Below, in pieces: positions 46,267-48,751 of a stretch of DNA of 49,426 bases. A model generated the notes under the pieces. It had not been told where the DNA came from. It searched no databases and saw only the letters and a program-made list of their open reading frames with translations. Position 1 is the first letter of the stretch. The number at the start of each line of letters is the position of its first letter. The DNA lies in assembly GCA_903872185.1 (NCBI GenBank), contig CAIQJL010000074.1, forward strand, positions 1 through 49,426. The letters run 5' to 3'. The position numbers were made by a program, and so were the translations under genes. This DNA comes from an uncultured Bacteroidota bacterium. Its GTDB lineage: Bacteria > Bacteroidota > Bacteroidia > Bacteroidales > GWA2-32-17.

Positions 46267-46626
46267 ATGTTAGAACATTTAACAATGGAAACTTTTAAAG
46301 AAAAAGTTTTCAATTATGAAGAAAATAAAGATTGGAAATTTATTGGCGATAAACCATGTGTTATAGATTTTTATGCCGATTGGTGTGCACCTTGTAAAAT
46401 GGTAGCTCCAATTCTTGAAGAGCTTGGAACAGAATATACCGGCAAGTTGAATATATACAAAGTGGATACAGAAGATCAGCAAGAATTAGCTTCTATTTTT
46501 GGAATAAGAAGTATTCCTTCAATATTATTTATCCCAATGGAAGGACAACCACAAATGTCGGCTGGTGCTATGCCTAAAGAATCTTTTGTTAAAGCTTTTG
46601 ATGAAATATTGGGTGTGAAGAAATAA
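46267..46626 (+). CDS. trxA: Thioredoxin
   Basis: This 119-residue thioredoxin has VIDFYADWCAPCKMVAPIL, with the redox pair CAPC rather than the commoner CGPC, followed by the cis-Pro region SIPSILF. No signal peptide is seen, so it is cytoplasmic. It reduces disulfides in proteins such as ribonucleotide reductase and peroxiredoxins. Its 3' region carries a REP hairpin and then a true terminator. It is a single-gene unit with its own promoter. Confidence 0.93.
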   Translation: MLEHLTMETFKEKVFNYEENKDWKFIGDKPCVIDFYADWCAPCKMVAPILEELGTEYTGKLNIYKVDTEDQQELASIFGIRSIPSILFIPMEGQPQMSAGAMPKESFVKAFDEILGVKK

Positions 46627-46628
46627 TC

Positions 46629-46664
46629 TTCTTTGTTGGAGATAACTCCAACAAAGGCGAAAAA
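46629..46664 (+). repeat. REP hairpin A
   Basis: CTTTGTTGGAG (46631-46641) pairs perfectly with CTCCAACAAAG (46646-46656) over ATAA, followed by GCGAAAAA. The 36-nt unit recurs identically at 47323-47358. A partial copy (TTCAACAAAGGCG) follows near 46669-46681. Confidence 0.9.
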
Positions 46665-46688
46665 CAACTTCAACAAAGGCGCAACATT

Positions 46689-46720
46689 TAAGTCGAATAT
46701 TTTTATTCGACTTTTTTTTT
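46689..46720 (+). terminator. Rho-independent terminator after the thioredoxin gene
   Basis: AAGTCGAAT (46690-46698) pairs with ATTCGACTT (46705-46713) around ATTTTT, and a T-tract runs to 46720. Confidence 0.9.
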
Positions 46721-46727
46721 CACAGCC

Positions 46728-46751
46728 CTTGTTGGAGTTATCTCCAACAAG
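46728..46751 (-). repeat. REP hairpin B (inverted orientation)
   Basis: CTTGTTGGAG (46728-46737) pairs with CTCCAACAAG (46742-46751). The loop is TTAT, the reverse complement of ATAA in copies A and C, so this copy points the other way. It lies 45 nt before the RAYT start. Confidence 0.88.
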
Positions 46752-46795
46752 ATTTTTTGTACTTTCATACTTTAAATAGTATTACTATCAGATAA

Positions 46796-47320
46796 ATGTT
46801 TAAAATTTACCAAAATACCTTTTTCTTAACAGCCACAATTAATGATTGGAAACCTTTATTAATTAATGACGAATACAAAAATATTGTTTTAAGTTCCTTA
46901 AGATTTCTAGTAAATGAGCAAAGAGTGAAAATTTTTGGCTTTGTTATAATGCCAAATCATATCCATCTAATATGGCACATTTCAAATGAAATAACAAAAA
47001 ATCATACTCAGGGCAGTCTTTTAAGGTTTACGGCTCAACAATTAAAATTTGAATTAATTAAAAATGCACCATTATTTTTAGAAGAATTCAAAGTCAATTT
47101 AAAAGACAGAAAATATCAATTATGGAAACGAAATCCCTTATCAATAGAAATTTATACTGATGCAATTCTTGAACAAAAACTTAATTATGTTCATAATAAT
47201 CCATTAAGCAAAAAATGGAATCTAGCTTTACAGCCAAAAGATTACTTTTATAGTTCTGCATTATTTTATGAGACAGGAATTGATAACTTTGGTTTTTTGT
47301 CAAATTATATATTGGAATAA
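46796..47320 (+). mobile_element. REP-associated tyrosine transposase (RAYT, Y1/IS200-like)
   Basis: This 174-residue protein has the Y1 transposase core: FGFVIMPNHIHLIWH, whose NHIH pair supplies the two metal-binding His residues, and KLNYVHNNPL, where the Tyr is the catalytic nucleophile. The length is normal for single-domain RAYTs. A REP hairpin lies 45 nt upstream and another begins 2 nt after the stop codon, as expected for RAYT-REP units. The coding region looks intact. RAYTs are thought to spread the REP sequences rather than themselves. No typical IS ends other than the hairpins are seen. Confidence 0.9.
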
Positions 47321-47322
47321 AA

Positions 47323-47358
47323 TTCTTTGTTGGAGATAACTCCAACAAAGGCGAAAAA
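47323..47358 (+). repeat. REP hairpin C
   Basis: CTTTGTTGGAG (47325-47335) pairs with CTCCAACAAAG (47340-47350) over ATAA and has the same GCGAAAAA tail as copy A. The 36-nt unit is identical to copy A. It starts 2 nt after the transposase stop codon. Confidence 0.9.
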
Positions 47359-47422: not shown

Positions 47423-48751
47423 TTGAATTTTAAGAAACAAATAACCAATATTTCATCGCTACAGTTTTTTCAGCTATTCAGGTTTGGAATATTGTTTCTG
47501 GTAAGTATTTGTTTTGCAAAAAGCCACTTAAGTACTGCAGAAATTGGAATTTACGAAAAACTGATTTTTCTTTCCGGAGCAATAAGCTTTTTCTGGGTAA
47601 ACGGATTAATTCAGTCCTTACTTCCATTATATAACAATAACAAGACATTTAAATCCTCAGAACAATCACCATTATTATTTAATGCACTTATTATTTCTGT
47701 TGCATTTAGTCTATTAATTGCCTTTATTTTATTGTTAACTGAAAAAACCAGTGCTACTTTTTTAATATCTGCCTCTGAAATACCATATAAGTGGCTATTT
47801 ATAGCATTTTTCACTATTTCAACACCAGCATTTTTATTAGAGTATGTTTATTTGTTATTAAAAAGACCATATTCTATTATTTATTACAGCATATTAACTT
47901 TTAGTTTACAATTTCTGGCCGTTGTTGTACCTGTTTGGTTAGGTTATGGTATTGAATCAAGCTTGTATGGATTAATTGCAATTTCAAGTTTAAGGTTTAT
48001 ATGGTTAGTAGTTCTTATTTTAAAGAACTCTAAACCAATTATTTCTTTACAATTTATAAAAGAGCATTTAACATTAGCATTGCCATTAATTGCAGGAGCG
48101 CTTATAAGTGGCTCTATGCCATACGTTGATGGGATAATTGTATCGGCGCATTTCGATGATGCTACTTTTGCCATTTACAGATATGGTGCTCGTGAATTAC
48201 CATTAGCTATGCTTTTAGCAAATGCATTTAGTAATGCAATGATTCCAGAGATTTCAGAACATTCGAATCTTAAATTAGCTCTAGTAAGCCTAAAAGAGAA
48301 ATCGACCAGACTAATGCATTTCCTTTTTCCATTAAGTATTTTACTAATTATCGTAAGTCGGTGGCTTTATCCAATAATTTTTAATCCTGCTTTTATTGAT
48401 GGCGCAGGAGTATTTAATGTTTTTCTACTTCTGGTAATTACACGATTAGTGTTTCCTCAAACTATTCTTTTAGGTCTGAAAAAGACAAAAATATTACTGA
48501 TAGTTTCAATTATCGAATTTTCGCTAAAGCTTGCATTTAGCTTATGGCTAGCTATTCCTTTTGGTATTGTTGGAGTTGCACTTGGAACCTTGATTGCATT
48601 TGTAGCCGAAAGAATTATTCTGATTACGATAAATTACAATTACTTAAAAATTAAACCTGCAGAATATATTGATGTAAAATGGCTATTTCTTTACTCCGCA
48701 ATAATACTGATAGTCTACTTCTTAGTAGAAAGAAATTTTTACTTTTTATAA
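47423..48751 (+). CDS. Polysaccharide flippase-like membrane protein
   Basis: This 442-residue protein has about 12-14 hydrophobic helices and the MOP-superfamily layout of Wzx/O-antigen exporters. It begins LQFFQLFRFGILFLVSICFAKSHLSTAEIGIYEK, in outline, then GALISGSMPYVDGIIVSAHFDDATFAIYRYGARELP, the conserved central pair. The role would be moving lipid-linked sugars across the inner membrane, but other substrates cannot be excluded. There is no ATG in the first 100 or so residues. The TTG at 47423 is the best start, just after the -7 element. No glycosyltransferase neighbours are present. Confidence 0.78.
   Translation: MNFKKQITNISSLQFFQLFRFGILFLVSICFAKSHLSTAEIGIYEKLIFLSGAISFFWVNGLIQSLLPLYNNNKTFKSSEQSPLLFNALIISVAFSLLIAFILLLTEKTSATFLISASEIPYKWLFIAFFTISTPAFLLEYVYLLLKRPYSIIYYSILTFSLQFLAVVVPVWLGYGIESSLYGLIAISSLRFIWLVVLILKNSKPIISLQFIKEHLTLALPLIAGALISGSMPYVDGIIVSAHFDDATFAIYRYGARELPLAMLLANAFSNAMIPEISEHSNLKLALVSLKEKSTRLMHFLFPLSILLIIVSRWLYPIIFNPAFIDGAGVFNVFLLLVITRLVFPQTILLGLKKTKILLIVSIIEFSLKLAFSLWLAIPFGIVGVALGTLIAFVAERIILITINYNYLKIKPAEYIDVKWLFLYSAIILIVYFLVERNFYFL

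Follow-up and report, generated by a model that had tools for sequence, protein, structure and literature searches.

The question raised by this locus is whether a small transposase-like gene and the palindromes on either side of it constitute an enzyme with its own repeat family, a mobile element, or neighbours by accident. The window, i.e. the whole stretch of 49,426 nt analysed here, is contig C74 of an uncultured Bacteroidota genome (G000; 4.3 Mb in 407 contigs), and the genes at its end are, in order, a tRNA nucleotidyltransferase (- strand), a thioredoxin (+), a RAYT (+) and a polysaccharide flippase (+). The features of the region were as follows.

46267–46626, + strand: thioredoxin gene, the upstream neighbour, outside the element
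46630–46659, - strand: REP R1, tag 5'-CGCC plus hairpin 46631–46656, just 3' of the thioredoxin stop
46666–46681, - strand: half REP, AACTTCAACAAAGGCG, right arm plus GGCG tag of the R1 type, with 1 mismatch
46690–46713, + strand: terminator-like hairpin of thioredoxin followed by a T-run, between R1 and R2
46724–46753, + strand: REP R2, tag 5'-AGCC plus hairpin 46728–46751, 5' of the RAYT, tag facing away
46796–47320, + strand: RAYT, a TnpAREP-like Y1 HuH transposase of 174 aa, intact ORF, assigned from motifs, fold and profile matches
47324–47353, - strand: REP R3, tag 5'-CGCC plus hairpin 47325–47350, 3' of the RAYT, tag facing away
47423–48751, + strand: polysaccharide flippase-like gene, the downstream neighbour, outside the element

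R1, R2 and R3 had the same stem, which was 10 bp with the loop TTAT in R2 and 11 bp with the loop ATAA in R3; R2 and R3 were mutually inverted, and R1 and R2 also formed an inverted pair. An intact RAYT ORF between two oppositely oriented REPs, as described in the original prediction, was thus confirmed. The same was true of a third copy identical to R3 over 36 nt, TTCTTTGTTGGAGATAACTCCAACAAAGGCGAAAAA being found exactly at 46629–46664 (R1) and 47323–47358 (R3), and of the position of this copy before the thioredoxin terminator; its placement inside the 3' region of the thioredoxin gene was in error, as the ORF ends at 46626 and the R1 hairpin starts at 46631, 5 nt past the last base of the stop codon. 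The earlier inventory of R1, R2 and R3 was correct as far as it went, but the half copy at 46666–46681 had been overlooked. When folded as single-stranded DNA, every REP had a z of about -7, unmatched by any shuffle, and the R1-to-R2 unit had a z of -10. All three REP hairpins were terminator-like by score, and an Rfam scan of the region returned only matches under the gathering scores.

The deduced RAYT possessed the residues H55-x-H57, W110, Y131 (in YVHNNP), N135 and P136, together with a YSSA extension. The gene had been called intact, and its HuH and Y motifs were indeed in place, H55, H57 and Y131 being invariant in 47 relatives. The NCBIfam model REP_Tyr_transpos matched 47 of these 47 relatives and gave 74.2 bits for the RAYT of the window, 6 below the cut-off of 80; at the default limit Pfam assigned no family to the RAYT, a match to Y1_Tnp (0.0016) falling under its cut-off. 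In two structure comparisons, the top match of the predicted structure (pLDDT 94.5) was 4ER8, the structure of the E. coli RAYT in complex with its REP hairpin (Foldseek E 1.6e-8; Z 14.6, 2.9 Å over 136 residues), ahead of IS608 and ISDra2. In a profile alignment to 4ER8, W94 and Q95 had counterparts, whereas E100, H101 and R104 had none. The RAYT is single-copy in this genome and has one orthologue, at the same position, in G004. Between the two genomes, the dN/dS of the RAYT was 0.12 at a dS of 0.52, the dS of thioredoxin and flippase being 0.55 and 0.56, respectively. Thus, the RAYT has been inherited in place and is under purifying selection.

Copies beyond the locus, whose absence would have refuted the original prediction, were found: the family has about 25 members in this genome, almost all intergenic. 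The 22-nt core of the REP was found 15 times in the genome at up to 2 mismatches and its reversed control 0 times, while GGAGATAACTCC was found 14 times versus 0 for the control. With a covariance model made from 12 REPs, and distinct elements counted at E ≤ 0.01, the best 150 candidates per genome were scored, so that all counts are lower bounds: at least 24–26 members in this genome, R1–R3 included and with possible double counts at the contig ends C54/C281, C80/C149 and C34/C405, and, in the other genomes of the genus, at least 44 (about 45) in G004, at least 12 in G001, at least 8 in G002 and at least 2 in G003. None was detected among the best 150 candidates of each of the non-genus genomes G005, G006 and G011. 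A simple pattern, REP-A, matched 5 of 5 genus genomes and gave stray single matches in 2 of 55 others; by these matches the family is confined to one genus. Since the covariance model contains the tag, tag counts within the genus are biased, and the independent tag test is that of 80 related loci given below. The stems varied by paired changes (42 two-sided covariation cells versus 14.9 in shuffled data). According to a simple ORF scan of two genomes, 72 of 74 copies were intergenic, 23 being bounded by convergent genes and 3 by divergent ones. The repeats therefore had the characters of REP elements (short palindrome, intergenic location, many copies, inverted pairs) and the gene that of a RAYT (flanked by dispersed REPs, one gene per REP family). 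About 11 REP sites were common to this genome and G004, and turnover is therefore slow. G001 and G002, the latter only 74% complete, carried some REP-A copies and had no close orthologue of the RAYT, a point against the explanation given below.

A mosaic REP was observed on C232 of this genome (L007:523–651), with a left arm of the TTGCAGG type and a right arm of the TTGTTCG type; an inverted pair nearby was made up of one element from each of these types, and the mosaic suggests recombination between REP subtypes. At the tail of C54 and the head of C281 (L002 and L008), REP-A repeats were situated 230 nt apart with identical flanks and adjoined a hairpin-like stretch, TTCGTGAGGACACGAA, of a type that flanks a different RAYT in G001. 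One REP with its flank was located at two contig ends (C80:17–38 and C149:104–125; L009 and L010), one of which adjoined a pair of IS3-like transposases; an insertion sequence may have landed beside the REP. Longer GTCAT..ATGAC-like palindromes were found no more than about 40 nt from REP-A copies (L012 and L015; C270 near 19740 and C387 near 39990). They resemble CGTC-type repeats (PMC3733652), and similar stretches were seen in G003 and G004 as side matches.

These data are best explained, with considerable confidence, by a vertically inherited, domesticated single-copy RAYT/TnpAREP with its own REP family, GCC-tagged REPs being copied at a low rate. The pairing of the RAYT with a cognate REP family, as first proposed, is well supported by motifs, fold, flanking-hairpin statistics and dispersed copies. 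The history of the locus was traced in two genomes, G004 and the sister species G003, with identities to the window here of 87.6% and about 84%, respectively. G004 had the same gene order and kept R2-RAYT-R3, but lacked R1. In G003, thioredoxin adjoined the flippase, the terminator was kept, and RAYT and R3 were absent from the orthologous site; one hairpin with a worn tag remained at the R2 position, and a decayed R1 followed the thioredoxin stop (local score of 14 versus a shuffled mean of 6; reached in 0 of 2000 shuffles). Because G003 has this worn R1 at the same place, the view that R1 was newly copied from R3 was rejected, and the absence of R1 in G004 is therefore a loss. By sequence comparison, R1 and R2 are older than the split of the three species. 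Two histories could account for RAYT and R3, a loss in the G003 lineage or a gain in the common ancestor of this genome and G004; on the evidence of one outgroup, loss is probably the better account, as each of the five species of the genus has the REP family. Direct-repeat recombination between palindromic REPs can also occur, and a short ATAC identity lies near the break. At another, otherwise conserved site, directly after a stop codon, a REP was present in this genome and G004 and cleanly absent in G003. The description of the locus as a clean case for REP spread is accordingly weaker at the locus itself, where R1 is old and the differences record decay of REPs and the loss, or gain, of the RAYT instead of a recent REP insertion, but it applies to this other site.

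The alternative that survives best is a former RAYT/REP system, in which the enzyme has been kept for another task, such as ssDNA processing or regulation, and REP spread has ended; we consider it possible, though clearly the less probable reading. Purifying selection and vertical descent would agree with it, and so would the low copy number (about 25) and the many REP sites common with G004, both of which weaken the case for current RAYT activity, as well as the age of R1, since this extra local copy is not a new insertion. On the other hand, hairpins with outward tags have stayed intact next to the RAYT and differ from one RAYT lineage to another (see below), which suggests that the enzyme still reads them, and intact REPs are many in both RAYT-bearing genomes, with only 2 among the candidates scored in the RAYT-less G003.

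Much less credible is an autonomous IS200/IS605-type insertion sequence that has R2 and R3 as left and right ends and moves as a unit. Its enzyme would belong to the same superfamily and have the same fold, and the lack of both RAYT and R3 at the orthologous G003 site is what a mobile unit might leave; yet the RAYT has one copy in its genome and one orthologue, at the same place, in G004, the RAYT dS is near that of its neighbours, hairpins are dispersed without the gene, and those at the locus are inverted with tags outward on both sides, unlike IS608 and ISDra2, in which, according to PMC6006769, the guide is 5' of the hairpin at both ends. A single-copy gene, inverted hairpins and gene-free copies led to rejection of the RAYT as an insertion sequence, and contradict it as a frequent mover.

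Hairpins beside related genes were compared in the best 80 RAYT loci (44–87% identity) from a scan of one genome per species. Judged by record titles, these best matches comprised 79 from Bacteroidota, including Mucilaginibacter, Pontibacter, Roseivirga, Arcicella, Chitinophagaceae and Saprospiraceae, and one Ignavibacteria MAG. Up to 350 nt from the RAYT, hairpins of at least 8 bp numbered 3.8 per kb, as against 0.15 per kb beyond 1 kb, a density 24-fold higher near the gene (209 observed versus 2 in shuffles). An outward GCC-tagged hairpin was present upstream in 55 and downstream in 55 of the 80 loci (on both sides in 46), and the nearest tagged hairpin faced outward in 51 and inward in 7 cases on the upstream side, and in 52 and 2 cases, respectively, on the downstream side. 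When only the loop was used to orient the hairpins, 121 of 161 had GCC at the tag foot and 4 of 161 had GGC at the opposite foot; the tag positions carried 0.95 (G), 1.54 (C) and 1.41 (C) bits, positions further out at most 0.27, and the first stem pair was without sequence preference, yet usually paired. The related hairpins were 10-bp stems with 5'-GCC in two main styles, GTTGG[TA]G-TTRT and GGTTCGTG-TCYC. Upstream and downstream hairpins of one locus had the same stem top and loop in 34 of 46 cases, and the loop class changed 7 times on the RAYT tree versus 24.5 times when shuffled (minimum 19). The least tenable explanation of all is that the RAYT lies by accident beside commonplace palindromes that serve in termination or mRNA stability, since, although REPs lie at 3' ends and between convergent genes and the three in the window score as terminator-like, it leaves the hairpin enrichment beside the 80 relatives, the common outward tag and the matching pairs unaccounted for, a separate terminator hairpin with a T-run exists, and we know of no role for a conserved unpaired GCC in termination. 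Adjacency by accident is already contradicted; once inserted, the REPs may act secondarily as hairpins at 3' ends.

For a RAYT with its own REPs, a mechanism can be proposed by analogy with TnpAREP work (PMC8266576), the source for single-strand binding, guide-directed cutting and REP pasting. The RAYT would recognize the REP in its single-stranded form, binding a hairpin whose loop has T first and is closed by G-C; the unpaired 5'-GCC at the hairpin foot would be the guide, a role assigned to it because of its position and conservation. Directed by this guide, Tyr131 would cut nearby, and REP copies would occasionally be pasted into intergenic DNA while the RAYT gene stays put. A cleavage dinucleotide was sought via flank conservation, and none could be named, as positions outside the tag had at most 0.3 bits each.

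The tags in the window were CGCC (R1 and R3) and AGCC (R2), none being GTAG or GTGG. The system is a TnpAREP resembling subclass 2.6 (RAYT group 5), which is described in PMC6006769 as dominated by Bacteroidetes, with "atypical", weaker flanking structures that lack GT[AG]G and were found by eye; that text states no guide for the subclass, and it is relative to it that the system, differing in its guide tag, would be novel. Shared with subclass 2.6, as far as described there, are the mostly Bacteroidetes distribution, flanking hairpins with copies elsewhere, the lack of GT[AG]G, NH[LIV]H (NHIH here), a Y motif like YIH[QN]NP and a C-terminal SS (YSSA here). Differences from the same description are the perfect 10-bp stems with 5'-GCC in place of the weaker structures, WK and YVHNNP in the window instead of WQ and YIH[QN]NP (relatives of the window RAYT have WQ and YIHNNP), and a HuH-Y distance of 74 versus a median of 82. 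It follows that the original view of such units as less described in Bacteroidota was fair but not absolute, this subclass being covered there. A search of a limited literature collection for RAYT, REP and Bacteroidota found no paper, and GCC in place of GTAG in Bacteroidota RAYT REPs, as read from the aligned hairpins, is probably new.

With the E. coli RAYT (4ER8), the window RAYT shares the fold, the HuH-Y core, a 5' unpaired tag and REPs on both sides; unlike the E. coli GTAG REPs, those here have a GCC tag, a smooth 10-bp stem, a 4-nt loop and no bulge. According to PMC6006769, the residues located at the GTAG guide include E100, H101 and R104 of 4ER8, which are not kept in the window RAYT; the region is described there as not conserved in subclass 2.6. 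The Y1 HuH enzyme and the hairpin with a putative 5' guide are also features of IS608 and ISDra2 (IS200/IS605), from which the system differs in having no mobile unit, inverted hairpins and many gene-free hairpins. Of the GTAG and CGTC REP superfamilies in PMC3733652, the latter, for which no transposase was found, are likewise short palindromes with a 4-letter 5' tag and occur in Bacteroidetes, CGCC and CGTC being one letter apart; their stems are of 8–9 bp, their 3' tail is CCA-like and they lack a flanking transposase, versus 10 bp, no conserved 3' tail and a dedicated RAYT here. A link between CGCC and CGTC REPs, which would rest on this one-letter likeness and a few clade-B hairpins with GTC tags, is not claimed.

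Clade B is a sister RAYT clade with 100% support that takes in a second RAYT of this genome (L017:1492–1992; C86 near 61701–62201), which has 27% identity and its own REP family around GCGTAGTTTGTAACTACGC. Most of its hairpins had 3-nt loops; the tags were G[CT]T-like and less uniform, and at the thresholds used hairpins were present on a given side in under half of the loci. Since loops and tags are clade-specific, each RAYT clade has its own REP design. The clade-B RAYTs of L170, L172 and L242 were flanked by hairpins whose tag was GTC or CGTC-like, which may lead to the missing transposase of CGTC REPs. In G038, a genome of the same taxonomic order (C8:144855–154935; L082, L085 and L086), several RAYT-like genes and fragments were clustered, some with stop codons.

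What is known of REP choice by RAYTs comes mainly from proteobacterial GTAG systems, and systems of this known kind have now become comparable in Bacteroidota. The chances seem about even that a separate Bacteroidota RAYT-REP superfamily exists, with a GCC guide (G[CT]T-like with 3-nt loops in the sister clade) and a protein surface without the GTAG-contacting residues. If so, the RAYT-REP pairs of more than 80 loci would be at hand for learning how the enzymes read guide letters, and the genus would offer a natural comparison of RAYT loss in which REPs wear out. Because the GCC tag is clear and keeps a fixed orientation across dozens of loci, oligonucleotides can be used to test guide reading directly, and the RAYT-less sister species G003 provides the comparison for REP persistence without the enzyme.
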